This document shows, piece by piece, positions 5,880 through 57,473 of a stretch of DNA of 64,000 nt; the stretch's first letter is position 1; every line of letters starts with the position of its first letter. The notes beneath the pieces are model-generated. The model worked only from the letters and a program-made list of their open reading frames with translations, was not told the origin of the DNA and did not search any database. This DNA is from Branchiostoma floridae (Eukaryota > Chordata > Leptocardii > Amphioxiformes > Branchiostomatidae): positions 2,586,342 to 2,650,341 of the forward strand of contig NC_049989.1 in the NCBI RefSeq assembly GCF_000003815.2, given 5' to 3'. The position numbers and the translations under genes are program-made.

Positions 5880-6395
5880 CCCATGCAGTGACTGGGCAAC
5901 ACCAGTATGTGTTAGTGTCCTCACTATAGATACCCTGCCTCTTCTGTTAATTGTTCTTGATAGCTTTGGGCCTTCAGGTGGTAACTGAGGTTATACCAGA
6001 TGTTACCAAAGTGGTTAAGATGGCGATGTCAGGATGCACGTTTTTTTCCATGAATACTTTGCTTCATCTGCAGTTACTGTTCATGATATAACGGCGACGG
6101 CAGCTAAGCCAATGGCCTTTCTGTGGTCACCAACTTGAATGAAAATCAATGCATCACCCACATTGTTGAGTGAATTGTCAGTGTTAGAAAGTGCATAATA
6201 CTCATATGCAACATCTTTAGTGACCTTTCATGATAGCTGATGGCTTTTCTGTGATCACCAGGGTCACTCCTTGCGTTACCAAAGTTGTTTTGTGATTTGG
6301 CAATGACAAGATGTCTGGTGTTAGAGACTGATGTCTGGTGTTTTCTCTGCACTGAATGTTCAAAACAGCTGACAGCCACTCTGTTATCAATAAGG
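5880..6395 (-). pseudogene. Eroded TPR modules downstream of the TPR gene stop codon
   Basis: After the stop codon at 6396 the minus strand still carries recognisable remnants of about four more TPR modules of the same family, in shifting frames. For example, [14 protein letters not shown] is read from about 6200-6260, and similar words recur around 6080-6120 and 5930-5990. The DNA words seen in the intact array (such as GGCCTTTCTGTGATCACCA and ACCATAGATACTCTG on the plus strand) recur here with substitutions and indels. The array was probably once longer and its 3' end has decayed after frameshifts. An alternatively spliced or frameshifted isoform is possible but less likely. Confidence 0.75.
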
Positions 6396-7739
6396 TTACT
6401 CCAAGTGATCCAAGTTGGTAAGTGACATGTCAAGATGTGCGGTGCTCTCACCATAGATACTCTGACTGATCTGTAGCAACTCTTCATAAGATATGACATC
6501 CTTTCTTTGATCACCAAGGTGACTTGAAGCATTTCCCAAGTTCTTAAACTTACCATACATACTCTGCATCATCTTTAGGAACTGTTCACGATAGGCAATG
6601 GCCTTTCTGTGTTCACCAATGTGACTGCAGGTGATAACCAAGTTTTCAAGTGCCTTGGCTATGTCAGGATGTGCAGTGTTCTTACCATAGATACTCTGCC
6701 CAATCTGTAGTGACTGTTCATAACAGCTGATCGCCTTTCTGTGATCACCAAGCTGACTGCAGGCATTACCCAAGATGATAAGTACATTGACAATGTCAGG
6801 ATGCGCAGTGTTATCCCCATAGATATTTCGCTTCATCTGTAGTGACAGTTCATGATAGCTGATGGCCTTTCTGTGATCACCAAGGCTACTCCAGGTGGTA
6901 CCCAAGTTGGTAAGGGACATAGCGATGTCAGGATGTGCAGTGTCCTCACCATAGATACTCTGCATCATCTGCTGTGACCAATAGGGATCAAAGCTGATGG
7001 CCTTTTCAAAATAGTAGACGGCCTTTCCGACATCACCAAGTCTTCTCCAGGTGGTACCTAAAATGGTAAGTGACATGGCGATATCAGGATGTGCAGTGTT
7101 CTCACCATAGATATTTCGCTTCATCTGTAGTGACAGTTCATGATAGCTGACTGCCTTTCTGTAGTCACAGAGGCTACTCCAGGTGGTTCCCAAGTTGGTA
7201 AGTGACATGGCGATACGAGGATGTGCAGTGTTCTCACCATAGATAGCCCGCTCCATCTGTAGTGACTGTTCCTGATAGTTGATGGCCCTTCTGTAATCAC
7301 GAAGACACCACCATGTGTCACCCAAGTTGTAAAGAGACGTGGCTATGTCAGCATTTGCAGTGTTCTTACCATAGATACTCTGCATCATCCGTAGTGACTG
7401 TTCATAATACACAGCAGCCTGTATGTGATCACCAAGGCTACTCCAGGTGGTACCCAAGTTGTTAAGTGACTTGGCAATGTCAGGATGTGTGGCGTGCTTA
7501 CCACAGATACTCCACTTCATTTGTAATGACTGTTCAAAATAGTTGACAGCCATTTTGACATCACCAAGCTCACTCCAGATGACGCCCAAGTTGTTAAGTA
7601 ATGTGGCGATGACAGGATCCACTGTGTTCTCTCGCTTCATCTGTAGTGACTTTTCATAACAGCTGATGGCCTTTCTGTAATCACCAAGGTTCCACCAGAT
7701 GGTACCCAAGTTGATGAGTGAATTGGCAAGGTTAATATG
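6396..7739 (-). repeat. Array of about ten 44-aa (132-bp) TPRs
   Basis: Modules follow the pattern [19 protein letters not shown] then HRKAISYxExSLQM then xxSIYGxNTAH, as in kinesin-light-chain and nephrocystin-3 type TPRs. Neighbouring modules are very alike at DNA level, which points to recent duplication or gene conversion. One module (around 6975-7010) has an extra [10 protein letters not shown] segment. The penultimate one (around 6540) has lost about six residues at its start, and the array ends in a truncated module. Confidence 0.85.
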
Positions 7740-10700
7740 TTCTTTTTCTCTACCAAGCTTAGAACCATCATCCCATAATGACCATGTTATGCATGTTTTC
7801 GCTTTTTCGTAATCACACAGTCTTGTGTACACTTCTGCTTGTAATGTTGATGAATTGTCAAACAATATAGATGGTCCTATGGCTGGTGGCTTGATTTTCG
7901 TAATTTGTGAAATAAAGCCCTTTAATGGAGTTGCTGTGTTATAGTACCTCATCAGTTGTTTTGTAGTTGAATAGTAAAACAATTCATTCAACTTCTCCCC
8001 AATATCTGTGTCAGCATCCATAGAAAATAAGGCTGGCATGTTCTCTGTTTGACCACGGTTGTTCATGAATGTCCTTAGCTTCACTTCTGCTGAGATACTG
8101 ACCATCACCATCAAGTGATGTGTGTTTTCAGTGTTGATGACACCTTTCATGTGCATCTTCTGAATGGTTTCCCATATTGTGGTGGGTTGTATGCCACAGA
8201 GTAGTGCCCAACAACTCACAGCAAGGGTAGGAAACAGATAGATTTCTTTCTTTGCATCAAGTGGATGTGAAGTTCTTTTGAACATCACAAGATTTGTTCC
8301 TTCTGCCAGTATGTGACAAGCTTGTAACTCATACATTTCCCGAGTCCATAAAGTGAAATAAGCATCGACCAAGTCCTGTTCTCCTGTGATCAAACATACG
8401 TTTCCCAATATGCTGGCAAGGCTGTAGCCTTTCTTTGAATGCAAAGTCAGGTCATCTTCAATGATCTTGGTCATCATCCTTGGTGTGTGAATAAGTTCGA
8501 TAGTTATACCCCTGACCAGAGGAGTCTTACATGCATTTGGCATGGCTCCATCAAACGCAAACCCATGAGGTGTTACAGAGTCGTAGAACCAGTTGTCCAG
8601 TGGGTCGTTTGAGTAAAAGTCATTAAGAGACTTAATCCCCATGGCCGGCAGAATGGTTTCTCCCAGATCAATGACTTTGAGATGCAGATAATGAGTAAGG
8701 TTCCTGAAGTACTTGATGTTGCCCTCTGTCTCTTCCTCTATCAGAATGGCAAATTCCAGATCAGAGTAAGGAGTTACTAATCCTGTAGCCAGTGAACCAA
8801 GTCCTATCAGGGCATACTTGCAGGGTGGGGGCCCCATTACCTCCACACATTCATCTACAAGGCCAGCTAAAAACATTTTTCTCTGTTGAGCAATGGTTTG
8901 AAACAAGGTCATGATTGCTTTTCCTCTCTCCTTCTCCACTTCTCTTATCTTTGGATCATTGTCATCGAGTTTATAAGGATTTATCTCTAGTTCAATTCTA
9001 TTCATCTCATCTTCCACCTGCCTGCGACTTTCCGTCAATGTCAATTTGTGTTTCTCTGTGTCACCGATAGCCACTGCTTGCTTGATCCCCAGTACATGCT
9101 CAACAAACATTTGGCTAGTTCGTAGGATTGCTTGTTTGATGCCTGCCCTATCTTCTGTCATTGCTCTCACCAGTGCGGAATTGCAGAGTGCTGCAGCTTT
9201 GGTGAAATCGCCTCCGTCTTCTGACTGTATGCCTCTTTCCAGGTAGACATCACTTAACTTGCATAGGATCTCTGCCTCTTTTTTGTATTGATCTATATTT
9301 GGATCTAAAAGAAATGGTTTTTGGTTATAAACTCCAACACCACTTTTTATTTGACTAATTGAATAGTACTATTTATCAAAACATGCCAGTAGAAAAATAA
9401 ACTATTCAAACTGTTCACCCATTCTTCATTAATGAGTATAATTGTGAGGTATATTGTAAAAAAAATCATGAGAAGTAAGTTTGTCAATTCCAAGAGACTT
9501 AACATGGTAATGTATTTATGACCTTTACACTTTAAGCAACAAACAGCCTGCAACTAACATTGTCATGATAGTTTTTTAGGTAAAAAGATGCAGTTTGTTT
9601 TAAGCAGATAAAATTATTTGGAGATTTCTTTTGTTGGTAAATTATGCCCAATTGTTCCATAACATACTTTATTTTAGAAAGTTTGGACAAAAAATAAAAT
9701 GGCAATTTAGACAAGCTTAAAATTGATAAGTATGGATGCCAGCTGGATGACCTGAATGCAGCTAAAAATGGTGGCAGCAACGTAGCTTGGCATATTGCTA
9801 TCATGCTGTACTGGGGAAGAAAGTGCATAACACTAGTCATTGTGTCTTTTTAAAAAATGGCGGTCAGCTGCTGCTAACGTTAGACAACAATTTTCCCTTT
9901 CAATGAAGAATGGGTTTATGATGTTACATATTTGCTCATACGGTGGCTGGGGCTGTTGTGATGATTTGTCTATAATTCATTGTGATTAAAACAATGTTTA
10001 CATGAACTGACAATAAGGATGATACTCTAGACTATTATGATAACAGGAAAACACCACCACATGCTAATTACTTCAATCAAGTTCAAAATATGCTGTATTT
10101 GTCACACAGATGTCCTCCCAATGGCGATGGTACATGACATTGTATTTATTATTACTATTAAATGAATTGGATTACCTTTCATGTGAATGGCCTTGAGTGC
10201 AGCTGCAAAGACTAGTTCTGCCCTGTCCAGGTCCCCTGTCTTCAGGGCCCAGCAGCCCTCCTGAAGAAGTTCTGTATATGACGTGTTGGTCAGTGCTACC
10301 TCCATTCTGTGTTTTGTAAGAAAACAGTGTTATCAGCATAAAACATAATTTCATTTGACAAAGTGATTGTTTTATACTAATTTAACAAAATGGCAGTCAC
10401 AGAAATAGATGTGACAGGAGCTAATGAACACACGCACCCTTGCCTATTTGTTTGATCGATGACGTCAGAGGTTGCCTGACTTGTAATTGGATAAGACCTG
10501 AATGTAGAGGTTACTCTCCAGTTCCTAGATAGTCGCCTATCTTGTCGCTTCTGAAATGAAAATAACATACAATAAGTAATCTAGCATTCCGTTTGCAAGC
10601 CAAAAAATCAGGAGTGCCAATACTTCCAAGCAAAGGCAACACTTTATCATAATTTAATCATAAAAATTGATAATAATATGTTAACAATTATTGTTTAGAT

Positions 10701-13700
10701 ATATTGACTATAACATGCAAGACTTTACACATAATTGTGTATGTCTGAAATGAAAGATCCATTAATATGCGTCAATGTAGTGAGCGATGTACTAAGAAGG
10801 AGAAAAATAATGATGCAGTATGTTAAGCAAAAAAGTGCATCCAATTGTAATACCTTGACTCCAGCTTGCTTTATTTTCTCGGCATACTTGATGCGATGTT
10901 CCAGCGTTTCTCTTCCGTCTGAATCTTCACAGCAGCGCAGTGCTGCTCGGTACAGGCCACCTGCTTTGGTGAATGCTGTCTCATCCTCACCAACCTGTCC
11001 CCTCTCTAGGTACAGATCTCCAAGGCTTTTCAATGATTCTACTTTCTGACTTCTCTTTCTACTGACAACTGCAGTCACAAAGTATTTGGTATAAGCTTCA
11101 ATCAAGGGAGCCAAACCATATCCTTTCAACCACGTCTTTCTTTCCAATTCACAAAGCTCCGTTGACACATCTAAAATCTCATCATCTGATTCCATGGTAC
11201 TTTGACAGTATACCAGCTTCGTACACTTCTCTGCATATTTGATACGATGCTCTATGGCTTCATTCTCTTGCCTACTGCTACAACATTGTAAGACTTCTGT
11301 GTACAATCCACAGGCCTTGTTAAAACTCTTAGCCTTGTGATTATTCATCTTAGCTTTCTGCAAGTACAAATCACCAAGACTTTTCAATGCCTCACATTCC
11401 AAAACCTCATCTTCACTACTAATAGCATTGATCAGAATTTGCCCGTATCCCCTCTCTACAACATCCAAATTAAACCCAGTTGCAAGGATTTTGTCCAGTA
11501 CACAAAACTCTTTCACCACGCATGTTAGCTTAGTCTTTGCTCTTTGAATGCCTGATTTTCTTGGAGAAACACTCTTGGATTTCACGATGGAATCCTGTTC
11601 TTTGATCTTCTCTGGGTGTCCGTGGTGTAGGCGAGCCTCTTGCTCACCAGTTTTCTCACATCCACCACCAACATCTGCCAAAACCAACATTTTCTCAGGA
11701 ATAAAATATATATTGTGGTAATCACATGACATATCAAACTCGATCTTGACAGTGTACATGAACGTGTGTGTGTTTGTTGATGTCAGTTGCAAAACTTAAT
11801 TGCTTTAAGACTATGGGTTCTGCAGTTTTGGATTGTTCAATTTGTATGTGTCAATGTCATCTACACTGTCTTCCATCAGTAATTTGGCAATGGAGGACTG
11901 GCACAATGGTATAAAAACTATAATGATGATATGTTGTGAACAATGTGGCACAACCAGTTATCAATGCCATTAGGATGTACTTTCTACGTCTTTGACATTA
12001 AATTACAAATCTGGAAACAAGTAAGCTGATTTGCTGACAGTTAACTGCATTTACATAATCTTGTGAATATGCTTTCCTGGTGGAGTCACATCTCCTCTAT
12101 AGACTCCTCATAAGGTCCACTATCATATCCTGCATCATCAGCCTTCCAATTGAATAAGTAGCTACCTTATGAAATGGTAATTCACTATCATTGCATTGTA
12201 ATCTTCTTTCTAAAAGTAGAATGAAATGTACCTCCAGCTGAGACTGACATGCTGTCCAAATGTGCTACCGGTAAGTCCTTGATGGGTCGGGGTTGCTGCG
12301 ATGTCGTTGATGCAGACGTACCATCCACACGGGCAGCAGCTATCTGTGCACTTGAAGGACCTCCAAAATCTTCCATCTGAACATCCTCTTGTCCTACATT
12401 CAATTGATACAACATACATGTAATAAATGTTTCCATAAACCACAACAGAGACAGTTTGACTGTCTTTAATCCTGAAGCTGACATAGCAATCATTGCTGCA
12501 ACAGAAACCATCATTTTACAACAGACTCACTGCCAGTTTGATAAAACTACCCAAGCTCAAATATTCTTACAGAAACAAAACACAAACCTTCGACTGACAC
12601 AGCTTTCTCGTCAGACTGCTTTGGGCTCCCAATTTGTCCTTGGTGCAGTTGGGCTTGTTCATCTGTAGCTGCACCACCACGGATCTTTATCACCACAACA
12701 TTCTCATCCCCTACAGTGTTGACAAGAACATAAAGGGACTATAATAAGTGTTTTTTTTTACACCCATCAAGATCATACTCAAACACAGTGTAGCCTGGTC
12801 ACGGATGTAACTAGCTACATGTATATATAAATGATTATCATATGTTTACCAATCTTGAATGTAATGAATGCTTAGACTAGTAGCTACCAGAAAGATACAC
12901 ATTGTATGGCTGACAGATATCACATTTTAAAACAGGGTACTATTATGTTATTATTATAATTATAATATGTCTTAAAAACATGAAATTAGATTAAGGATTG
13001 CTCACTGCTTGATGCCACAGCCTGTTCAAGTTCATGAACCATTTCCTGGGAAGGGTTCCTCACGCCGATGGCCAAGTTAATGGGCACATCGATCCCTTTT
13101 TCTGCAAACTCCGGTAGGAATGTCTCGATGAGGATTTGCTGCAATGTCCCATCTCTTGCCTTGCGGATGAGCTGTAGACGGTCTGCCTCCGTTGCAACCT
13201 TAATCTTAAGTAAGATGCATCCCTCTTCAACACTTTCTACTGTGCAGTCCACGCTACATCGTTCTGCAATCAAAGTGGCAAGCCGATCCTGAATGCCTGG
13301 GTCTTGGAGCTTTGCACGTATGTCCTCTTTCTTTCTCGGATTGATGCCAGCCTTGAAGCAGATCTCCATAATTCCTGTGTGTAAAATGAGAACAATTTGG
13401 TTCCAAGAAACATATTTAAATTGTGTTGTTTTTGTTTGACAGGTCAAGATTATTGTCTTTTTGTTAGACAAGAAAACTTACAATTAATTACAAAATGTAT
13501 GTTACTGTCAAAAGTCTTGTTACCTTGGATGCATACAATTGTAAGATAGGCTCATTCTAAGTACATGGCAGACTAGGACTTACCTTCATTCTGGGGCAGC
13601 ACTTTTCTCTCCAAATCCATAAGGTTGTTGTTTCCAATTTGCACGTTTTCGCAGTTGTCAATACCCTTCTTACTATACACAACGACAGATTCAGGCTCAC

Positions 13701-14844
13701 GGATGATAAACCGTGGGTGACGTGCTATTGCACCAGAGGAAGGAACTAGGGCTGAACTTGTGCACTCTTCTGTTCCGCCAGAAGAGCAAACATTGTTATT
13801 ACCCAACTGCACACAACTTGAGTTCTTCACCTCTTCTTGATCATGTATGACTACCTCTTTTGGTCTGTCAATCACAATATCACAATTGCCTTGTTCTAGC
13901 TCTGATGTAGATAAGCTGAATGATGCTGGATCTCTGGAAGACACTTGTATGTTGTAGCCAATGGCATGCTGAGCAACCTCCAGTGTGCCTGCATCTGACC
14001 TCTTTGTGGTTTTGGTCTCTGACCATGATGCAAGATGTAAGCATGTGGTAGCCTGTTCCTCTGCACCTGCCTCTACATTGCTTGTATCCACTGATGCTTC
14101 TTGTAATGTTGGACAGTTATTACAGTAACTATCATTTGCTACACAAGAATTTGGCTGTGCACTTGGCAAAACCTGACCTTGACCATGAACTATGGGTTTG
14201 TTGTTTGTAGACTCTGAGTTCTCAACAGCTCTTCCAACATCACTGTTGCTTGTATGTTTTTGCCCTGACTGCATGTCTTTGTAATTTGCTTCACTGAGAA
14301 AAGTATGAAGAGGTGTGTCGTTATCTCTGCTGTCGGCAGCCTGGTCAGTTTCATTGCCACTATCAGGAGAGATACTGATTTGATCAGAGCTTGTTGGGCA
14401 GATTGGACGATTTGCATCTTCCCTATGAATGATGCATTCATCATGGTGGTCGGTGACAGTTGTTTCACCATTATTCAGGTTTGCAGATGTATTTTCTCCT
14501 TCTGTCTTGCTGTAGTTACCAATCTGAACTATAGTGCTCACCCCTTGTTGGAGTTTTCTGGTGTCTTCACTTTGTTCGTTTCCTTGTGCAAGCATGTCAA
14601 AGTCACCATTTTGACATCTGTCTATTGCAGTTCCAACCCTGCAAGGTTCCATGTTATGACTAGGATAAACTGCGTTCATTGTAAGGCTGTAAGAATGCTT
14701 GTCATAGCCACTAATCACACAATTGCCTAAGCCAAACAGAAGTGATGCCTTGTAGTCTGCAGGGATATTATAACAGTTTAGATGGCTAGTTGGGATCGAT
14801 CTTTGCTTGACATGATTCAGAAATGACATGTGTGGTGACCTCAT
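6396..14844 (-). CDS. RHIM / TRADD-N / nucleotidyltransferase / TPR protein (8 exons, about 1,942 aa)
   Basis: Minus-strand model with exons 14844-13584, 13374-13006, 12710-12588, 12393-12232, 11674-10854, 10550-10498, 10306-10176 and 9304-6396. All junctions are GT-AG, phases agree at every join, and the sum is 5,829 nt. Order of parts: a low-complexity Ser/Asn/Thr-rich N-terminal third with RHIM-type motifs; a TRADD-N-like alpha/beta domain; two short linker exons; three related TPR-like modules containing SLGDLYL and FTKA words; a GlnD-like nucleotidyltransferase domain; then about ten 44-aa TPRs. By analogy with RIPK1/RIPK3/ZBP1 (RHIM) and TRADD, an immune or cell-death signalling role is inferred, with the TPR array as the likely recognition surface. 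The start is the Met at 14844; the frame stays open a little upstream, so a further 5' exon is possible. The exact orthologue is not recognised. Confidence 0.8.
8466..8843 (-). other. GlnD-like nucleotidyltransferase domain
   Basis: The segment reads [12 protein letters not shown] followed by [11 protein letters not shown], the hG[GS]-x9-Dx[DE]h signature of the DNA polymerase beta-type nucleotidyltransferase superfamily. The TPYSD spacing is closest to the GlnD/DUF294 group. The two metal-binding acids would be D and E of SDLE, with a candidate third acid in GITIELI about 86 residues on. The motif looks intact, so activity is possible, but the substrate is unknown. It sits between the TPR-like modules and the long TPR array. 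Confidence 0.65.
10854..11674 (-). other. Exon with two TPR-like modules
   Basis: Two related modules of about 65 residues each carry the words [11 protein letters not shown] / [20 protein letters not shown] / FTKAGGLY and [10 protein letters not shown] third, more diverged member ([10 protein letters not shown] ... FTKAAALC) is encoded just before the nucleotidyltransferase domain in the last exon. They are helical hairpins of TPR type and are distinct from the 44-aa repeats of the C-terminal array. Confidence 0.7.
13006..13374 (-). other. TRADD-N-like domain exon
   Basis: One exon encodes about 122 residues. Helical segments alternate with strands: a charged N-terminal helix ([11 protein letters not shown]), a [15 protein letters not shown] beta hairpin, then GTLQQIL and a long helix followed by the strand VPINLAIGV. 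The order, strand-then 'G-x-L-x-x-x-L' helix-then 'V-x-L-x-L' strand, matches the N-terminal domain of TRADD (which binds TRAF2) and its relatives in metazoan and bacterial immune proteins. Assignment is by pattern only, so other ferredoxin-like folds remain possible. Confidence 0.55.
13584..14844 (-). other. RHIM-bearing first coding exon
   Basis: The exon encodes 420 residues, largely disordered in composition. Near its C-terminus (about residues 397-410) is [13 protein letters not shown], which fits the RHIM pattern [IV]Q[IVL]G-x-x-N-x-[ML]. It is preceded by a VVVYSKKG stretch, as the mammalian RHIMs have a short hydrophobic strand before the core. A second core, [10 protein letters not shown], lies about 55 residues upstream, and a weaker one, TIVQIGNYS, near residue 107. 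RHIM cores build hetero-amyloid signalling fibrils in RIPK1, RIPK3, TRIF and ZBP1. The donor at 13583-13578 leaves phase 1. Confidence 0.75.
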
Positions 14845-33500: not shown

Positions 33501-36500
33501 AACATGTACAATAAAATTTTCATATTTATTCATTCATTTCTTGGTTTGGCTGTTCAGCACGCACAAAGAGCTAGCACTGCTGACAAAAACAGAGACAATA
33601 TATGGATTCAGACAAGGACAGGATACTTACCAATAACAATAATAAGTACATAAAAAGATAAAACAAGTATTGTTTATAGTATTGTAGGAATTTTGCCATA
33701 ACCAACTCACCAATATATGTGAGACTGAAGTTGCCATAGCTGTTGGTGGGTCCATGGTGGAACAGGACGAGGACCTGGCTATCTGTGCTGTACACATCTG
33801 CTGAGGCAGGTGCAGTACTGCTGAAGTTTGCTAGGGGAGCTGCACCGAGGTCCCCACCATCAAAGATGGCCAGGTATGCATCAATCTCTCGGAGTTCAAA
33901 GCTAACAAGAAAAAATAAATGTGAATTAAGATTTCATATTCGAGCATATTTGGCAGCAAGTTGTCTAACAAAACTTAAATTTGAATATTGTCTTTAGTTA
34001 CCAATTATAATAGTAGTATGTAAACAACATTATATAAAGAAGATTCGTTTCTGAATGAAGTAGGCAAAGTTTCATTCTTACGTCTTATGGTTGTAAGACA
34101 TACCAGGGCTCGAAATTCACTTTTGGGATTAGGTGCACTGGTGCACCCAGCTTAAAAAATTGGGTGCAACAAAAAATTTTGGGGTGCACCACTTGAATTT
34201 AAGTAGAATGTCAGAAAAACCTAAAACTTAGTTACATGCTATCAAATTCCTAAACAAGTACCATGACAGACATTCTTATCAGCTTTCTAACACTTAGATG
34301 TCAAGAATATTATGTATACTGGTATACTTTGATATCTTTACAAACATAAACCCAAGAAAATATTTGGGTGCACCCTGTGCACCCACAGAAAATAATTGGG
34401 TGCACAGCTCCAATTTTGGGTGCACCTGGGTGCACATGCACCCAGTATTTCGAGCCCTGCATACTTTTGGTGGTGTGCGATACGAAAATGCGATTATACA
34501 AAAAATACAAGTAAAATGTATCACATTAGTGCACGCCCTTTCCAATACACTTTGGGCCAATGGGTAGACCTGACATTTTATACTGCAGACATATCATAAA
34601 AGTAGAATAAGAAATAAAACATCTTGTTGTAAACAATGAACAGAAACTAAACATATTGCTAGCGTTCCTGTCCTTGGTGCTGAATGCCTTCACTTAAGAA
34701 CAATACTGAAATGCCTTCACTTTATACACTAGTCCAGTCACAACTTTGTATCACCTGTTAAACATGACTATCACCCTGAGTATATATTGGTAGCTTTTCA
34801 CTGCCAGGGTGTTCCTGTCCTTGGTGCTGAATGCCTTCACGTAACAACAGTGCCAAAATGCCTTAACACTTTATACACTAGTCACAACAGCTTTGTATCA
34901 CCTGTTAAACATGACGATCACCCTGAGTCTATATTGCTAGCTTTTCATTGTCAGTGTGTTCCTGTCCTTGGTGCTGAATGCCTTCACTTAACAACAGCGC
35001 CAAAATGCCTTCACTTTTCAAAGCATGGCAGTAGCTACTCAAGACCACACCCTTTGGAGACAATCTGCTCACCGAGTCCACCAATACAACAGTGTTGCGG
35101 GAGGAACTAAGGTCTAAGGTAAGGTATACAGTAACACTGGTCACAACAACTTTGTATCACCTGTTGAACTTGACCATCACCCTGAAGCTGTCGTCCACGT
35201 GCACCCGCCAGTAGCAATCCCTGCCGACAGCGTTGTCGGGGTCAGGGGTCGGGGACGCAATTGTGCCGTTAGCAGAGGTCAAGTTCCCGCCACAAGGAGC
35301 TGTACAAGGGATGGACATTTTATTACAAGCACACTACTGCTTTTTCATAAACCAACTTCTGTACTAACTGTTACAGAAAGATGGCAGATATTGCATATGT
35401 CCTGTTTAAGAATTTTAACATCTGATTAGAGTATAGTTAATTAGAATATTTGTGACTTGATACAATGGCCTTTAGCAACATGACAATGTAATCTTTGAAT
35501 AGACACTCTTTTTACACAACCACAGCTTTATTTTCACAGATGTTTTGGTGACTGTTAGTCTCCTTCATCAAGGCAATTCTCACTGGTTCACATTGTACCG
35601 CAGCAAGTATTGCTGCTTACAGATGTTGTATATATGTAAATGCTTTGCGTTTGTGACCGCAACTGTAAGCAGCGAAAGAAATGTTGCAGTTCCTCACCAT
35701 AGCAGACAGGGGGTGCTGCATCCCAGATCCTCTGTCTGCCCTGCAGGCAGGTGAGGGTTGCATTGCCTATCAGTTGGTAACCTGCATCACAGCGGTACGA
35801 CACCGACTGTCCCGCGGAGTACAGGACTTTGATGGAAGTGCTGACTCCGTTAAGAATGGGCCCGGGGTCTCGACAGAAGGTTTCTGGAATGCCTGTGGTT
35901 ATGAACAATAAACAATAGATAAGACATTCATTTATTTTCAGTTCAGTTCATTTTCGAAGGGACTTTATTTCGTGGAAGTGGGGAAAGGAGGTTTCAAAGT
36001 TTGTGGTGGAAACAATTCTATGTTATAACATAAGTGACATAAGAACAACAAGGGGTAAATAATAGTGTGGTCACCCTCTGGGACTTACCATTCTTCTACT
36101 TACTAAGGGGGTGGTGGTTCCTTAAAAGTCCTAACACAGAAAAACAAACAATATGAGACACCTACTTTCATACAGGAGTGAGAAGCCTCCCATGCCTGTG
36201 TCTGTGTTGGTGACCAGCTGTAAGGTGATGTTGTGTGTCCAGCTTAGCCAGCTAGCCGGTATTGTAGTACCGGTCAGGCTTCTCTCTGGCTGGTCACCTG
36301 GCCTGTTCTCATCATACACATCTGTGGGCAAGGTGGTCTGGTGGTTAGAGTTGATGACTTTATCTTGAATCTATATACTAGTATTTTAGGATGTACTACA
36401 ATGTGAACCAGTGAACTGCCCTGAAGAAGGTGACAGACAATCACCGAAACAACAGTGAGAAAAAAGCATTGGTTGTGTAAGAAGGCTCTTTATTCAGTGA

Positions 36501-39500
36501 CGTACCAACCTGATGAAACTATTCATGGATTTATATTTTAGGTTCAAATCCATAACAGGCTCCAATGTTGTGCCCTTGGGGAAAGCTACCTAACATTATC
36601 TATTTCCTCACTGGAATCAGGTGAAAATGAGTATCTAGCATTGATGAGGGACGTCCTCTAGGACGGTACATAAATCCAGAGCCCTACGGCCTGTTTGACT
36701 AGAGCCACACCTTGAGAAAGTTGAAGAACCCACATTGCTACTAGGTTACATATGGCCAGTCTTAACTGTGAGTCCCCTGACAGTAATTTCCCTTAAGAAC
36801 CTTTGCTTGCTTGCTTGCTTACTTCTTTAAAGCGAGTCAATCCGGCCTTTAGAATACCCCATATTAGCTCAGGATTCTCTAAAACTCCATAATACTTAAA
36901 TAAGAGAGTTCAACTTACAGAGAAAGTCTTTTCCGTCCTCCAGTGAGAAGTTGTTGAAGAGGAGTCGGAGCAACATGCCATCAGGTGCAGACAGGAACCA
37001 GGTGCAGGACAGGTTACCTGCGTACCTGTCGGGGTAGCCAGGTGAGAGGAGCACACCTGTGCTGGCGTTGGTGATGCTTCCCCCACACTCAGCTGTGGAA
37101 GGTAAGGCAAGCTCTGTCATGTATATTGGAAATTTGATTATTTTTGCAGAAAGTTAAAACAAACTTTCCAAACTTTTTTAGTTTGAACGTTCAAGTTCAT
37201 TTTTGAGAATATGTGCACATGAAACATATGGCATGAGAGTCTAACAACAATTTATTTTTTGCCATCAGTAATGTATTAATGAAAAGTTTTACCCATGTTC
37301 TGAGTTTCAATGGAAACTACACATTGTATACTGTAGCACAAAAGCACATGCTCACGGTGTCATGATTGTGGAATGGGGTGGCACCTCGAAAAAAACCACA
37401 GCAAATATTTCAAGATCTACAGTAAAAATCATTCTTACCTCTGCAGGTAGGCAATGGACCATCCCAGGATCCATCGGCACAGGTGAGTGAGGAGTTACCA
37501 TGTAGGGTGTACCCGTCATCACAGGAGAACTGTACGGTAGAACCCGGGCCGAAATCCCCTCCAACACGGCTGCCGTAATCTGGGCTGCCTGGGTCAGGGC
37601 AGGCTGCAACTGGGGTGGGCTGAGCTGTGTGGACACAACATGGACAATATCTGTCAGTAGAAAACAAACGTTTCTTAAAACGTTGGACTGGCAGGATGCT
37701 TTGTGGAAAGCAGAAATCCAAATTAGATCTCACTAAATTAAATATTGGTGTGCCAAAAACATCTGGCAACCAGTTTTCTCCATCTAATAAGGGATAGATG
37801 AGATAGAGGAGAGAGGCACTGATTTGGCAAGTCAGATTTGTTCAGCAAATGCTCACCACTGACTGGCTCTGCAGTAGAGTGACCACTAGGAACAGGTGCG
37901 GATAGAAGTTCGTGTCCCAAACATGTCTGACTGTTCTCAGAGGGAAGATAGCTACAGTCCAAATTTCCCGGCCACTGGAATCCAAACCGTTCCATCAGAG
38001 GACCGCAACCAGACTTTGCGGCTTCACACAGCCTGCGACAAGGAAGTCTCGCACTTTCCCCACCTTCACAGGGTGGCGCATACATGTAGCACAAGAACTG
38101 GCGCAAGTATCTGTAACACTGAAGCTGCACTAAGGGGGAGTATTGGCTGATCTCCAAGCCTGCGTCTACTTGATTCTGGTTTAGGTTGTTTGGGAAAATG
38201 GCTGAGGTGTAGTTAAGGGTCTGACAGAGCGGTATGGTCACCTCTTCACAATGAAAGGAGTCTGTAAGAAATCAAAGGGAGTTGTCACCTGTATTCACAA
38301 CGAAATTGTTGAGATGCACAATGATAGCCTTGACATAATGATCGAAGTAAAGAAATCAAAGGGAAGCATTTTTGGTATGATCGCCAAATGTGGAAATCCA
38401 AGATTGCCCTGATGAATTGGATCAAATCAAAGACAATAGGCAACTAACTCAGTACTGTCACTATCTTTGAAATTTTGACCAATATCTGCATGGTATGCTT
38501 TTCATAGAGGAGCAAGGGACCAACAGTTGACCTAGAGACACAGCTGGCAATACCTAAGATAGAATAGTAGGCCCTAAAACTTGTAAAAGGAACCAAAGCT
38601 AATAAAAAGCCTGAGCTCCCAAAGATGTGAAAAGCAAACAGCAAGTGCATAATGCATTGTGCCTTAGAGAGAGAGTTACACGTAGACTAATGATCTAACA
38701 TTAGACTCAGACTGGGGGTGTTGGCATCTAGTCCTGTAGCAACTAAAAATACTGCTAGGGGGGCCCAAATTAACCCCCGAAATCAACATGTCTCATTGGG
38801 ATTCATATAGCAAAATCCATAAAAATCCATCAAAAGGATCTTGAGCTACAAGTGTGAACATACAAACACAACCAAAAACAGTAACCCTAACAGTTAATAA
38901 AGCATTGTACTTCTAATAAGTAATATATCTAAAGTTTTTCTGTTCACCCAAAAATTTTAGGTTAGGTGCACCAGTGCCCCTATTCCCAGAAGTGAATCTT
39001 GAGCCACAATGCATTACTGAACTCAGAACTGTAATGATTTAATGGAAGCACTCCACACAGACACAGCCATAGCTAAAACGCATCATGTAAAGCTATTTTT
39101 GAACACTGGAAATACCCCCATTACTTCCATCTGGCTTTTAGCTATAGGTCATTTGTAGACAGGACAACTGAGAAATTGGAGGGGGGGGGGGTTATGCGGA
39201 AGCAACACTGTCATTATGGCAGTGCATTTGGGGGGGGAGCAGATGTGTTGCTATGTAATTACAACTTGGAAATAAGGCATCCTTTGGGCATCTTCTTTAC
39301 AAAATGAATACCAATTCAATTTCTTGGCTCTCGGATTTTCAAAAGTAAAAATATAGCAAGCTGACATCATAAAGCTAGAAGGTAGGGAGGAAAACTGGAA
39401 TATGACTGTATTCACCCCATAAAACTGAATGCACCAAGGCACAAACCTGGTTCTCAGGCTTCATTATTTATCATTATGTTTTTTCCAGTTAAGGGTTTTT

Positions 39501-41831
39501 TGAAATTTAAAAAAAATGCGAGAACCAACAAATGAAATTGGTGTGGCCTGAGTTTCACCTTCATCCCGGCACCACTCACCTCTGTAAGTGATATTAAATC
39601 CTCCTGTTCCATTAACAGCATCTGATGAGAAGCTCAAGTACAGCTGAGAGCCTGTGCTGTTGATGACATCACCTGCACCCAACATGTGACCACTGTAGGA
39701 GCCAATCACAGGGGAGCTGGCATTCGCGCCGTCGTAGACAGTCAAGGTGTCTCCAATGTCTGCCGTTGAGAAAGTGTTGACACTGAGGGATAGAGAATGG
39801 CCAGGCTGGGCGATGATGCGGTAGACACAGCTGGCGTTGTTGCCATAGTCCTGTGGCCACTGGGGTGATAGAAGCTCACCAAAGGAGTCGGTGTAGTTGC
39901 CCCCACAGTCTGCTAGTGAATAGGGACAAGAAATTGAGAAAAAAATTTAAAATATGTTCTTTAATACAAGTTACATTCATTATTCTTAGTTAGAAGGACT
40001 TGCTTTTTCGATAAAGGGGGAAAGAGGGTTTTTTGGTAGGTACAAATAAATCACATTTAGCAATACATTATTCACAGTGTTATGAATTCGTAACTTAGAG
40101 CAGTCACTGCGAAAACTGTGAAAATAAACCCACTCCTAGTGCATGTTAGGACAAGAAAAGAAAATGACATAGCCAGTTTTGCAAGGCATCTATTATTAAT
40201 GGTTGTCAATGTGACGTTCCTTAGCGACCTACCGGCATTCTGTGCAAGGCTCAAAAGCCTGGGTAAATACGACTTTTGTAACTGGGTATTTGAGCTACAT
40301 AATTATATATGTCATAACTAGTGATTTGTGCATTTTCGTCACATTCAAATGTCAGGAAAAATGTGGAAAGCTTTTTCTACAAAGTTATCTATACTAGCAG
40401 AATTTCATATTCAATCTCAGAGTGGCAGTAAGGTTTGTGAGTTAAGGTTTTGCTCACATTCTAGTTTCTCATATGTTTGACATCCATGTTTTTCAGTACA
40501 CCTAAATTTACCAGATTGTCTATTTCCCCCCAAAAAATGAATTTCGAGCCTTTCTGAACAACTACATAATATACACTGTGTATACAATGTTCATGGCAGA
40601 CAATGCTTTTGAAAGAGAAACATTCAATGTTGCTATCAATTATTGACTGCAATCATTGGGACTGAGCTTTCACTACTAAATCTGATACATAGTATGGAAA
40701 AGATCACTGCCCATGAACACGTATTAAGCATTGACAGAGGATTTCTATAACCATATTACAATACATTTCAGAAATCTTATCATTGGCACAATATGTTCTA
40801 GTGTAAAGACAAAATGGATCACAATATGTTCTAGTGTAAAGACAAAATGGATCACTGCTGACACACTGGTCTTGTTTTTGTCATATCTTTCAATGGTTTT
40901 GTTTACTCGTTTCCTCTGCCTTATTAATAGACAACATATTCAGCAACCGGGGAAAATTAATTTGTCTGGCAATAATTTTCATTTATGCATCCCTTGGGAT
41001 GGCTTGTCCATTCATGAGAAAACAATCTGCATTTTTTCATACACACTCAGACACTTCTACATTATTTGAGCTGGAGGGGCAATAGACATTTCTTAGATAT
41101 TTAGGATTCCTTGCTAGGTTTGTCATAGAACTACAAACCATTGAGAAATAAAGAGAAATATTTTCAATTTGTTTCTTTTGACAGCGTTACATTTTGCTTG
41201 GATGTTTATCAAGTTCTCTCTAGTTTCATGAACACACTGAGTGTGACTTGGAGATATTTGTGACTGCTCAGCTAATAGGCTTCAGAGCCGGATATGTCTG
41301 AAGGGAGAGATCTTTTTAATTAAGACAACTGAACCCTCCAATGTTTTGATAAGAAATCGTTTCACCGTGAATTACTTAGAACGTCAGGAAAGCATTATAT
41401 ATGCCAACGGATCAACAACTGAAAGAGACTGTTGTTTTAGCGACATTTGTGGTATTAACAGATGGAAAAATAATAGTATTGTCAAACCTCGAGAGGTGCG
41501 GTGATTGCTAGTATGATGTCATCATAGTAACGTTACCGGATTCCATGTCCCACAAAGGAAACGGAAAACGAAAGCTGAACACAAACTACTTTCCGTATTT
41601 CCGACTACCCTGAACTGACACACGACCAAAGCAACTAAGGACTGGCCGATCTAACATTGGAATACCGAGGAGAAATATTGAGATAATGATGATACATAAC
41701 GCTAGCTATCCGGATTGTGTTACACTTTTCTCACCTGCGGGTGACTCAGCGGGCGGTGTCACAGGTGTCTGTCCCGCCGCCAAGAGCACGGCAGCGCACA
41801 AAATTCCCGCCAAAAACTGCAGTCTCGGCAT
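27567..41831 (-). CDS. CUB / Frizzled-CRD / Sushi type I membrane receptor (14 exons, about 892 aa)
   Basis: Exons on the minus strand: 41831-41735 signal peptide (MPRLQFLAGILCAAVLLAAG); 39912-39580 CUB1; 38261-37857 Frizzled CRD; 37624-37439 Sushi1; 37092-36919 with 36321-36166 CUB2; 35892-35698 Sushi2; 35299-35161 with 33901-33711 CUB3; 33495-33304, 32961-32776 and 31581-31375 Sushi3-5; one of three TM exons; 27669-27567 tail. Nearly all junctions are phase 1, as expected for shuffled extracellular modules, and the sum is 2,679 nt. The 34-residue tail contains SFDNPMYEVP, an NPxY endocytosis signal like the LDL receptor FDNPVY. A cell-surface, internalising receptor is inferred; the Frizzled CRD suggests Wnt or lipid ligands. 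It is divergently transcribed from RAD51C. No exact orthologue is recognised. Confidence 0.88.
28282..28384 (-). other. Alternative transmembrane exon 3 (phase 1-2)
   Basis: 103 nt; acceptor TTTACAG, donor GTTGGT. It encodes ADRLEKERGIALEA, the hydrophobic AGIAVAIFVSVSIAVSV and YQHR. It joins the common tail exon in the same phase as the other two. Confidence 0.72.
29411..29519 (-). other. Alternative transmembrane exon 2 (phase 1-2)
   Basis: 109 nt; acceptor preceded by the pyrimidine tract CCCGCCCCCATCTACCCCAC, donor GTAAGA. It encodes APAHSGYVNEGIRAG, the hydrophobic SITVIFLLALGGLVIGY and KKVLR. Confidence 0.75.
30094..30208 (-). other. Alternative transmembrane exon 1 (phase 1-2)
   Basis: 115 nt; acceptor CTGTAG, donor GTGAGA. 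It encodes EAQVKTSSARSGSN-type juxtamembrane sequence, the hydrophobic run ALGVSLFVVLALLGVGGVV and the stop-transfer YKWR. The C-terminal half resembles that of TM exon 2. Confidence 0.8.
30311..30566. repeat. CAGGGTT-ended element in receptor intron
   Basis: Starts CAGGGTTGGACAAGCCC and ends AACTTGTTATTAAACCCTG, with CAAGT/ACTTG words near both ends. It is the opposite orientation of the copy at 15918-16222. Confidence 0.5.
31640..32560. repeat. Intronic repeat, unit with TTCCTGTCCTTGGTGCTGAA
   Basis: TTCCTGTCCTTGGTGCTGAA followed by TGCCTTCA (or CGCC) recurs near 31712, 32209, 32353 and 32467, each preceded by GAATGGAAAAT-type sequence. Further copies in another intron of the same gene lie near 34669, 34810 and 34965. 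Confidence 0.6.
31857..31932 (-). pseudogene. Relic duplicate of the Sushi5 exon
   Basis: About 25 codons resembling the start of the Sushi exon at 31581-31375 (EVSIQLCHDPVFLHYATY versus EVPIQLCHDPAFLHYGTY), still with its own CACAG acceptor on the minus strand. The rest of the exon is missing. The neighbouring intron sequence is duplicated too. Confidence 0.75.
34104..34459 (-). repeat. CAGGG-ended element, 'GTGCACCCA' subtype, inverted copy
   Basis: Ends are CAGGGCTCGAAATTCAC and GTATTTCGAGCCCTG, with the direct flank CATAC on both sides (34099-34103 and 34460-34464). It aligns in reverse orientation with 15148-15485 over nearly its whole length. Inserted in the intron that splits CUB3. 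Confidence 0.75.
36322..36735 (+). repeat. tRNA-derived SINE-like sequence interrupted by an insertion
   Basis: The plus strand has an A-box-like GGTGGTCTGGTGGTTAGAG near 36330 and a B box GGTTCAAATCC at 36541-36551, followed by a tail GTGCCCTTGGGGAAAGC and AGAGCCACACCTTGAGAAAG. The two halves are separated by the insertion at 36391-36533. The SINE head abuts the splice acceptor of the second CUB2 exon (acceptor AG at 36322-36323). Confidence 0.55.
36391..36533 (+). mobile_element. Short insertion with hammerhead-ribozyme-like core
   Basis: Flanked by the 9-bp direct repeat TATTTTAGG (36382-36390 and 36534-36542). Inside, CTGAAGA (36421-36427) is followed by a 5-bp stem GGTGA/TCACC with a 7-nt loop and then GAAAC (36446-36450), the order CUGANGA - stem II - GAAA of a hammerhead core, with one extra A before the stem. 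Helices I and III were not established. A related fragment on the opposite strand lies at about 35505-35590. Penelope-like elements and animal retrozymes carry such motifs. Confidence 0.4.
37857..38261 (-). other. Frizzled cysteine-rich domain exon
   Basis: The exon reads SFHCEEVTIPLCQTLNYTS then FPNNLNQNQ, LQCYRYLRQFLCYMYAPPC, LPCRRLCEAAKSGCGPLM and FGFQWPGNLDCSYLP. This is the ten-cysteine Frizzled CRD order with its YT-x-x-FPN and FLC-x-x-YAPPC signatures. The domain binds Wnt acyl chains in Frizzleds and also occurs in MFRP, corin and collagen XVIII. Confidence 0.9.
39580..39912 (-). other. CUB domain 1 exon
   Basis: A single exon encodes a full CUB domain: DCGGNYTDSFGELLSP, a YGNNASCVYRI strand, GDTLTVYDGANASS and GTGGFNITYR at the end. 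Only one cysteine pair is visible. Several N-x-S/T sites are present. Confidence 0.85.
40788..40855. repeat. 33-bp direct tandem duplication
   Basis: ACAATATGTTCTAGTGTAAA followed by GACAAAATGGATC occurs twice in a row without mismatch. Intronic, so probably recent slippage. Confidence 0.8.
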
Positions 41832-48593: not shown

Positions 48594-51500
48594 TCAATGA
48601 CATGGTTCTGTGTGCAGTACCACTGCACCACGCAGGTGGAGCTGCTGAAATGCCCTGAACTCCTCTGGCATGTTGTGAGTCCTGTTGCTGATCATCTTCT
48701 TCCTGTCGTAGTAGTGGTAGCGCAGTGCCCTCCCTCGTGCGTCGTCCGTGAATGGGTAGAAGCCGTACATGTGGATCTGGTCGCAGATGGTGGCAGCAAG
48801 GGTGTACATGTGGGCACCGGTGGATGGACGGAGGATCTCGAACCCAGCGTCTCTCCAGATACTGTAATACCGGTATATTTGATTTAGATAGTAATGCATC
48901 ATCTATGATGATTACATTCAAATACAGAACCCAGACAAGAGAATGTTTAGAAAATAGTTTAGTTCAGTTCACCTTTATATACTGATAAGCCCTGTCGGCC
49001 AACATGTAGGCCGTTCTTCCCAGAGGACCAGTTGAGGGGAGGTGTCACGGGGAAAAAAAGGATCTCATACTGCCAATAAAATGTTTTTTGTCTCCCCATG
49101 AATAAGTAGCCTCACCCATTGACCCCATGACCTGGAATGTCTGTCAGGGTTGATGAATGACTTGTTCTACCGACTCTGAACTCGACTTCCTGTCACTCTG
49201 GCAACCTTTTGCCCCACACTTCCTGCCACTAGTAAGAGTTGCCCCAAAATGCATGTCATATAGAAATAACTATATAAACAGACACAATTAATTCAGAACG
49301 TACTGAGGTGATGACAATAGGATGGAGATGAAATAATAAGAGGGAACTCACGATTTCATGAGATTATTTTGTCCCGTCGGTGGAAATGCCATCTTCATCG
49401 GCAGCTTGTGCTGAAGAACAATCTGTGCAACGGCTCTGACGTACTTCTCTCCATACGGAGATGTGAAAGCAGGCACGTACAAGATCTGGTCGCCAACTTG
49501 TTTCAGGCTTCGTAGGAAACGATTGTACTCTTTTCTCGTCTTGTTCCATCTTCTGAAATTTTGCGGAATCACCGACGGATTCATGGTGGTGAAGTTCGCC
49601 TTGGAGCCGACATCTTTCTCGTAACCCTCGATTGGAGGTAGATTGCATCGCATGACGAAGTCCATAGAGTCGATTTCTTTGCCACAGTTACTGTTCAGCA
49701 CAATCCCAGAATTCCCTACCACTGCACACGTGTTGAAATGGCGGTCTGCTAAAGGTGATCTTTTGGGGACCAACTGCAAGAAGTCTTCCGTGACGTTGAA
49801 TGGAGTCATGATAAGCTTGGTATGAAGTTCGTACGTTATATTCTGCCCAACTTTCAGACTGGACTGAGTTAGAGTCAGGTTCGCTTCTGGGTTGTAAAAC
49901 CTGAGTATATGTTGCCTGGAAGTAGAAAGAAAATAGTATTCAGCTATCCAGTTTCAAAGGGTAAGGCACAAAATCATATCCAGTTGCTTGAGTAACTGCT
50001 TTTTGACATATCTTATTACCTGGATGTCTAACCTTCATCGACGTACATTATTGATAAACTGTTCTCCAACTTTTGTAAAAAAAAATGAGTTGGAGAATTT
50101 TGAGTTGGAGAACAGTTTTTCTAGTTGGAGAATAGTTTATTTCTATGAATAAACTGTTCTACTAAAAAAATATTTCTAGAAATAAACTTCTTGAGAAATA
50201 AATTCTAGAAATAAAGTGTTCTCTCAAGAATTCTTGATGCTAGTTTGATTGGTGTTTACCTCATCTTCAGTACCTCCGTTCTGTTGAAACACCAGTTCTG
50301 TCCCGATCCGTTTCGCCAACCACAGCTCTCCTTGGTTATTGTTTCCTTCACAGCACCTGTCCCTGGCTTGGCAGCTTTCTTGCGCTTCACGACTCGCTTA
50401 ATGACTTTGATAACTTTCCTTTTCTTCTTCGGTGGGAGTGGGGCCGTTTTACTACCGGTACCGTTCTTTGTCGCGGAAGGCCCGGGAACCAAAAGGTTTG
50501 CTGTATTGTTTTGAACAGAAGTCCCATTTATGAAATCAGCTTTAACGCTCCGCATTGCACCAAGGCGTCTTGCGGTCACTGTCACGAATTCTTTGAAAAG
50601 AGTTTTTGCTGTCTGCTTTTCGACACTGTATTAAAGAGAATGTGTGATTAATACTGGTATACAATGATACATGTATAATTCCCTTGCGATCGCAAGTCTA
50701 CACTAGGACCCGTTCACAATGTGTGTGTATTCAAGTGGCGTATTGACAGCCTTAGGTAAAGTTTTTCAAAGTTGTTTTTAACGTTGACTCATCGTTGTGC
50801 AGCCTGCTTAACGAACTGGAAAAACTTCTTTTGTTTTCGGCCACAAACTTTACCAAGGACAAAAATGTAAACATACAGTGCGCACACACTTGTATATACG
50901 CACAACGTGTGAACGAGGCTTTGTAATAGTATTCTATTTCATGTAGAAGAATCTTTGCAAACTCTGTTATCTAAGGTGATTAGTGATATACATCTACTCT
51001 TTTATATAGAATAGAGAGCACTGAATGACAGCTGGTGGAGTGCTTATACTGATTCAGAAAGATTTGCAGTGACAGTAATTATGTGTTGTACGTTAAGCCT
51101 CGATTACTGGCCCGGTCACACATAGTCGAACATGGCCCCCAACCACTAACCTTGCCAAGGTCGGGAGCAGTCTGACCAGTTTCAGGCCACGCCCATCTTT
51201 TGGCACCAACCATGTTCCGAACACGTCCTGACCACATGTCCCAACCATTTGACCATGTCCCAACCATTTGACCATATCCCAACCATTTGACCATGTCCCA
51301 ACCATTTGACCAACATGAAAGATGAAGAGAAGTGAAAATAAACAGCCCGTGAACTGCATATAGGGCCGCTTTTACCAATTTGGAGAGTAGCCTAACTCCG
51401 GAGAACATTATTCCCCTTGTTTGCTTACGTGCTGCTCCAATATATTGGTACCGACGACAACCTACTAGAGAACACGTCGCTGACAATACAGCCCATCCAT

Positions 51501-56707: not shown

Positions 56708-56975
56708 TCACTGGCATGGTTCTGTGTGTAGTACCAATGCGCCCCGCTGGTGGAGCATCTGCAAGGCCCTGAACTCCTCGGGCATGTTGTGAGTGGCGAT
56801 CTTGATCATCTTCCTCTGCTCGTAGTAGTGGTACCTGAGTGGCGTTCCGTAGGGATCCGTGCTGAAGGGGTAGAATCCGTACATGTGGATCCTGTCGCAC
56901 ATGGTAGCGGCCACCGCGTACATGTGGGCACCCGTGGACGGACGGCGGAGTTTGAACTGAGAGTTTTGCCAGATT
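56708..56975 (-). CDS. Terminal exon of a second ST8Sia-like gene (partial)
   Basis: The 268-nt exon has exactly the length and entry phase of the last exon of the gene at 48594-52257. It encodes PSTGAHMYAVAATMCDRIH, MYGFYPF, YHYYEQRK, THNMPEEFRAL and HTEPCQ before TGA, so sialylmotifs S, III and VS are intact. The acceptor is ATGCTTCAG. No sialylmotif L exon was found between 57 kb and the window end, so the upstream exons either lie beyond the window behind a long intron or are lost. Probably a tandem duplicate. Confidence 0.8.
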
Positions 56976-57473
56976 CTGAAGCATATACATGACAAAAATT
57001 GTAAGGATTCCAGTATAAACGTGGCCTGCGTACCACACGATTTCTACCTATGGGGCTCCTTACACTCGCTACCCTAAAAGTGTACGGAGCCCCGATAGAA
57101 GTCGGATGGTACCCAGGCTAGTATAAATGCAGAGTTAAGTGGATATAAGTAGAGAATTTGCACCACTAATGATGACCAATTAATGTCTCAAGAAATAGAC
57201 TGAAGCCCCTGTCACACACAGCCGACCTTGGCCTCCCGACCAACTACAGACCATGGTTGTGAGACAGGCCCCTGTCACACATAGCCGACCATGGCCTCCT
57301 GACCTTCCACCCGATTCTATCATTATTATCATAAAGGTTTGTTAATCATGGGGCATGATTTGCGAATACGTTCGGTTGATCAGTGCCTTCCCATGGACTG
57401 AGGCCGTCTGATTAGCGAAGAGTTCGCGCTGGGGGTAATCAGGAGTCGGGGTCAACAACCCGTGATGCTGACC

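Follow-up and report, generated by a model that had tools for sequence, protein, structure and literature searches.

In the lancelet Branchiostoma floridae, a 64-kb stretch of DNA (contig C11:2586342-2650341; hereafter the window, to whose whole length all coordinates refer) carries eight exons on its minus strand that we read, on balance, as one fused innate-immunity gene, in which a RHIM-TRADD-N head is spliced onto one copy of a nucleotidyltransferase (NTase)-TPR gene to give a proposed sensor-adaptor. This reading builds on the observed domain content and order, on family membership, on the exon-2 donor, on the other bodies that follow the head at three loci, and on the constraint in the NTase family. 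Judged by sequence matches in the 513-Mb assembly (431 contigs) covered by our genome searches, the gene appears to unite a small family of RHIM-TRADD-N heads with a very large family of NTase-TPR proteins.

The exons (E1 14844-13584, E2 13374-13006, E3 12710-12588, E4 12393-12232, E5 11674-10854, E6 10550-10438, E7 10306-10176, E8 9304-6396) are bounded by AG and GT and join in phase into 5,889 nt, encoding 1,962 amino acids (aa) with no internal stops. All seven splice junctions are predictions. An earlier note on this DNA had likewise reported eight in-phase minus-strand exons and gave their length as 5,829 nt; some exon boundary therefore differs between the two models. The domains and their order in that note are supported. 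From its N-terminus, the predicted protein has a RHIM region, a TRADD-N-like domain, the linkers of E3 and E4, TPR-like modules, an NTase of DUF294 type, a helical region and a TPR array. The Pfam scan of the gene covered E1, E2, E3, E5 and E8; for the whole of E8, 25 of 29 families were listed.

Exon 1, whose start codon is tentative, encodes an N-terminal region that is probably disordered. The Pfam RHIM profile (PF12721) matched it over two stretches at 21 bits (cut-off 20), and three cores of the pattern [IV]Q[ILV]GxxN/S were found, confirming the RHIM cores described earlier: VQIGNYS (aa 106; 14509..14529), VQLGNNN (aa 345; 13792..13812) and VQIGNNN (aa 401; 13624..13644). When the exon was shuffled 20,000 times, 103 shuffles contained one core and none contained two. 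The second core aligns with VQLGQSN on contig C135 and ILLGKNN on C235. The third, which is the best Pfam stretch, has an aligned core on C135, C148 and C235 and at locus L035 on C19. A search of the genome with the RHIM family gave no matches, and its control also gave none, so that search was uninformative.

The TRADD-N-like domain is encoded by exon 2 (phase 1-1). An AlphaFold model of this exon, built from seven lancelet sequences, had a mean pLDDT of 79.2, and its top Foldseek match among 350,542 PDB chains was 1f3v_A, in which TRADD-N is in complex with TRAF2 (E 8.2e-5, 12% identity, TM 0.62 when normalized to the query). The NMR structure 1f2h ranked 16 among the fold matches. Many ferredoxin-like folds come next with weaker scores, so we regard the class of fold as firm and the precise family as slightly less certain. 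A Gly-Cys turn (G51-C52) sits between predicted strands 42-49 and 52-59; at this beta2-beta3 turn, GC is present in 4 of 4 close rows and GL in three aligned rows from C19. The turn fits the TRADD-N motif given in the available part of PMC8195603, a tiny residue with Ser or sometimes Cys. The profile results count against the assignment: TRADD-like_N (PF20694) matched exon 2 at 18.2 bits, below its cut-off of 23.7, and at E <= 1 it matched only 4 of 7 TRADD-N members, the best E (0.0022) being that of the window itself. From sequence alone, membership in the TRADD-N family is not proven, and the TRADD-N-like domain of the earlier note held in its fold and fell short in its Pfam profile. Searching the PDB by sequence returned no useful match to TRADD-N. 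Neither a kinase domain nor a Death domain was matched among the families listed for the five scanned exons.

The exon-2 protein matched eight places in the genome (E <= 0.001), namely the window, C135, C148, C235 and four places on C19. At five of the eight (the window, C135, C148, C235 and L035), the TRADD-N exon has RHIM cores upstream of it; 63 other loci, read in six frames and amounting to 520,870 codons, contained the core motif once. The phase-1 GT that closes exon 1 is at the equivalent place on C135, C148 and C235. With Pfam RHIM (cut-off 20), C135 scored above the cut-off (25.5 bits), and C148 (17.4) and C235 (13.8) scored below it. The C19 cluster is more distant and consists of four places, L035-L038, between 0.35 and 0.79 Mb. 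L035 has the upstream core VQIGSNN and a TRADD-N apparently split across two exons. Searching the genome with a degenerate TRADD-N pattern returned 15 exact matches, compared with 3 for the control. Eight of them fall at the places listed above; the remaining seven could be either chance matches or more relatives.

Other bodies follow the head at three loci, within about 9 kb (C135), 4.3 kb (C148) and 4.3 kb (C235) of downstream DNA; on C19, 1.5 kb was covered. These body assignments rest on position and strand. On C135 (196001-207878; L032, L040, L071), the head is followed by a single long exon that encodes RING, B-box and NHL domains. On C148 (161727-167900; L033 and L073), it is followed by two Death-domain stretches. 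The first is a single exon scoring 18.7 bits, below the cut-off of 22.6; the second runs over two exons, the first half giving no match, the second half 33.5 bits and the joined halves 39. The C148 gene resembles a TRADD/RIPK1 hybrid adaptor, with no kinase seen in the pieces scanned. On C235 (234700-240760; L034 and L074), the reading frame of the TRADD-N exon is broken, and downstream lies an open stretch of 326 aa that is proline-rich in part and matched no Pfam family. In the twelve loci examined on C135, C148, C235 and C19, with the downstream lengths given above, the exon 5-8 protein had no match at E <= 1. Taken together, these loci suggest that RHIM-TRADD-N is a swappable immune signalling head. 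Two observations speak against the fused-gene reading: no RHIM core was seen within the 1.5-kb flank examined at L036, L037 and L038, and the head and an NTase-TPR body were found together at the window locus only.

Exon 8 encodes the NTase, the helical region and the TPR array, and its first 517 aa gave 83 scored genome matches. Pfam DUF294 (cut-off 21) scored 22.9 bits over these 517 aa and 21.9 when all of exon 8 was scanned. The alignment comprised the window member together with 28 members drawn from the remaining 82 scored places (n = 29); one further locus, L002, was left out because of a stop. DUF294 matched all 29 members and DUF294_C matched 21 (E <= 0.01), the window member itself being outside the DUF294_C matches. 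The signature G-S-x10-D-x-E (8754..8798) is invariant in 29 of 29, with residues G169, S170, D181 and E183 in the numbering of the 517-aa piece. The median dN/dS across the 406 pairs was 0.22: the 29 compared members are under purifying selection.

The family is very large (L001-L030, L041-L070) and forms clusters on C4, C7, C12, C156 and C174. A degenerate PYSD-x-EF pattern had 258 exact matches genome-wide against 17 with a reversed control, which gives roughly 240 NTase motif copies, a count of motifs and not of intact genes. Of 511 candidate places, the 83 best-scored included 79 free of stops in the matched stretch.

The GlnD-type NTase of the earlier note was recovered by the DUF294 profile. 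The AlphaFold model of the NTase was poor (pLDDT 60.5, with the signature region mostly below 50), a weak point of our reading. The NCBIfam whole-protein GlnD model scored 12.2 bits, below its cut-off of 519.4, and matches to MntA and GlnD were weak. A PDB sequence search with the NTase profile returned nothing usable, the best match being an MNT antitoxin at E 0.32. The earlier comparison with the second-messenger enzymes cGAS and OAS is not supported: we rejected this reading because the NTase is of the DUF294 class by Pfam (DUF294 in 29/29, DUF294_C in 21/29), and Mab-21 and OAS families were not among the three Pfam families of the 517-aa piece (E <= 1). The known GlnD-type enzymes modify proteins with nucleotides, so that a second messenger is just one of the possible products.

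The TPR array (6396..7742), recognized by repeat comparison and as tandem arrays, comprises some 10-11 units, each about 44 aa long, close to the ten previously described. TPR_12 scored 187.6 bits in exon 8 (cut-off 30.1, E = 3.9e-56). The units had also been called near-identical, which we rejected: pairwise identity among the 7 full repeats was 42-89%, with a mean of 58%. The array ends at a stop codon at 6396, and decayed TPR traces continue in other frames past the stop to about 5950 (5950..6395, minus strand), so the array was probably once longer.

We think it likely that the head and body exons form one gene, as far as can be judged from conserved sites. The phase-1 GT donor of exon 2 (GTGAGC at 13005) is at the same place in 4 of 4 close copies (GTGAGC, GTGAGT, GTGAGT and GTATGT), and the in-frame stop at 12988 is therefore best read as part of an intron. 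Exon 5 encodes a TPR-like module that is usually the N-terminus within the NTase-TPR family. Among its 201 genome matches (E <= 0.001), we surveyed 29 paralogue loci for the start. Met was found at -4 from the conserved exon-5 core in 17 of the 29 and between -4 and 0 in 23; in the remaining six it was at -10 (L045), -12 (L052), -23 (L047), -25 (L070) and -56 (L065, with two units), and L064 was incomplete. At -4 the window gene instead carries Ile (ATT); going upstream, the first Met is reached at -51, immediately ahead of the acceptor. Together, the exon-2 donor and the missing start Met of the NTase family favour one fused gene. In support of this explanation, the C135 TRIM exon has no Met ahead of its RING and for that reason needs upstream exons. 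No AATAAA or ATTAAA occurs on the gene strand between E4 and E5, an absence that says little because none occurs in 6396-5500 either. The single polypeptide of the earlier note is thus favoured by the donor, the missing start codon and the Met-less TRIM exon, across junctions that are predicted.

Two neighbouring genes could also account for this region, although we consider this unlikely. One would be a short RHIM-TRADD-N adaptor and the other a separate NTase-TPR gene starting at ATG 11690; the adaptor would end by reading on in exon 2 (TAA 12988) or in exon 4 (stop near 12188). Several observations weigh for it and against a single gene. Both read-through ends exist, ATG 11690 opens the exon-5 frame and could start a separate NTase gene, and intron 3 contains an ATTAAA at 12470. 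The Met at or just before the exon-5 core in 23 of 29 paralogues fits a separate start; the -4 Met itself need not be the start everywhere, because it is internal to a two-unit exon in L050 and L067. E3 and E4 had no genome match except themselves (E <= 1). E3 (phase 1-1), a short VVVxxI segment with a linker, is bounded by in-phase AG/GT and weakly resembles the pieces after TRADD-N at the other heads; shuffles reached its score in 1/1000 (C135), 64/1000 (C148) and 24/1000 (C235) cases, and the pieces compared were chosen by eye. E4 (phase 1-1) is a linker indicated by in-phase AG/GT only. Two genes are harder to reconcile with an exon-2 donor kept in 4 of 4 copies, with Ile in place of the family start codon, with the lack of either poly(A) signal between E4 and E5, and with a C135 TRIM exon that requires upstream exons.

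The fusion might be real and its NTase inactive, leaving a scaffold or switch in a RHIM/TRADD-N adaptor with a TPR bait; we doubt this, although we find it less unlikely than two genes. A third catalytic carboxylate could not be assigned, residue 212 is Asp in the window member and Asn in the other 28 of 29, and the structure model is poor. This does not sit easily with the invariant GS-DxE motif and the constraint on the family, nor with the presence of DUF294_C, the substrate-binding domain, in 21 of 29 members, though not in the window member at E <= 0.01. Least probable, in our judgement, is a decaying paralogue without present function. The stop that cuts the TPR array, the decayed TPR beyond it and the frame break in the TRADD-N exon of the C235 relative are as expected from decay, but 1,962 codons have stayed open despite an NTase dS of about 0.9-1.2 to the nearest sampled relatives.

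If the fused gene is expressed as a single transcript, sensing, catalysis, assembly and output might proceed as follows. A small family would provide the N-terminal head, with RHIM cores and TRADD-N, which would be spliced to one copy, lacking its own start codon, of the GlnD/DUF294 NTase-TPR family. The TPR array would bind a cue or partner, the NTase would change state or nucleotidylate a bound protein, and the molecule would then cluster; the passage from NTase to clustering is the weakest step that we infer. RHIM cores assemble as amyloid, and those of the gene would seed amyloid-type assembly with other RHIM proteins while TRADD-N recruited TRAF-type partners. The outcome would be an NF-kappaB or cell-death output. 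According to the available parts of the sources, a lancelet RIPK1 homologue carries a RHIM (PMC12119088), a fungal RHIM-like domain cross-seeds human RIPK1 and RIPK3 (PMC12881547), and TRADD-N binds the MATH domain of TRAF2 with Ser67 as a key contact (PMC8195603).

Among the remaining features, exon 6 is a linker indicated by in-phase AG/GT only, and exon 7 encodes TPR-like helices; in the flank examined, 22 of the 29 paralogue loci showed an E7-like piece. The extra 5′ end of exon 5 may be a remnant of a preceding TPR-like unit, a suggestion for which there are no more than hints (part of this end matched L050 by blastn at E 0.001; 355 of 20,000 shuffles reached the ungapped profile score). 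E3 and the start of E5 are weakly indicated as duplicates (shuffles reaching the score: 47 of 2000 for protein, 306 of 2000 for DNA). Rfam had no matches in the window at gathering scores, and PADLOC returned nothing for three pieces of the gene. Elsewhere on the minus strand of the window, 49351-49953 and 56711-57043 are exons of one or two sialyltransferases (Glyco_transf_29), and 35591-39946 holds exons with CUB, Frizzled and sushi domains, perhaps of one extracellular protein.

Vertebrates keep TRADD apart from the RHIM kinases, as distinct proteins that come together at receptors. The presence of RHIM cores and TRADD-N on adjoining exons at five lancelet places, with Death-domain stretches after them at one, suggests that this partnership can be a single chain, and such a chain offers a way to test the origin of the partnership. 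A wider proposal, which we put forward tentatively, is that a portable RHIM-TRADD-N head on several bodies (NTase-TPR, TRIM-NHL and Death domains) provides one amyloid/TRAF output for several intracellular sensors, the body of the window gene being drawn from a GlnD-type NTase-TPR repertoire of about 240 copies that may form an unrecognised chordate sensing system acting through protein nucleotidylylation. The size and constraint of this family (about 240 motif copies) raise the question of what it senses and modifies.

As far as our searches reach, the pairing of RHIM with TRADD-N at several loci and the joining of a GlnD-type NTase to that pairing are new within the literature searched. RHIM does not occur in the main text of PMC8195603, and TPR, TRADD and RHIM do not occur in the available text of PMC12373286. 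The source data of PMC8195603 may already list the window gene as a TRADD-N-TPR protein. The available part of that paper describes an expansion of lancelet TRADD-N proteins, with DEDD2-clade fusions to TTC28-like TPR, OAS and TRIM, and an oyster DED-TRADD-N-Mab21/cGAS-TPR protein, XP_011454060.1, placed in the NCOA6 clade of TRADD-N. The earlier note knew of no vertebrate protein with the domain order of the window gene, and these proteins weaken its claim to uniqueness.

On the published description, the oyster protein is a close comparison: like the predicted product of the window gene, it carries on a single chain TRADD-N, an NTase of polymerase-beta type (putative in the window gene) and TPRs, in that order, but it has a DED with HEPN and Ig where the window gene has RHIM, and a cGAS-type NTase where the window gene has a DUF294/GlnD-type one. 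The invertebrate DEDD2-clade fusions share the lancelet expansion, the variable partners and the Gly-Ser/Cys turn, whereas their constant part, as described in the same available portion of PMC8195603, is a Death-like domain with TRADD-N. In the available part of PMC12881547, the fungal protein PNT1 (PP/RHIM-NB-ARC-TPR) is likewise a TPR protein with a RHIM-like amyloid motif at its N-terminus, but it uses an NB-ARC NTPase switch in place of the NTase and is described without TRADD-N. RIPK1, RIPK3, ZBP1 and TRIF have RHIM cores of the same pattern; unlike them, the window gene has TRADD-N on the same chain, and kinase, Z-domain and TIR were not among the families listed for the scanned pieces. 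TRADD shares the TRADD-N fold, and the C148 relative also has downstream Death-domain stretches; the window gene differs from TRADD in having RHIM, with no Death domain among the families listed for those pieces. The GlnD/DUF294 and MntA NTases, finally, are alike in DUF294, in DUF294_C (21 of 29 members) and in the GS-DxE motif; HD and ACT were not among the Pfam families listed for the whole of exon 8 (25 of 29), and the window gene differs from these enzymes in carrying a TPR array.

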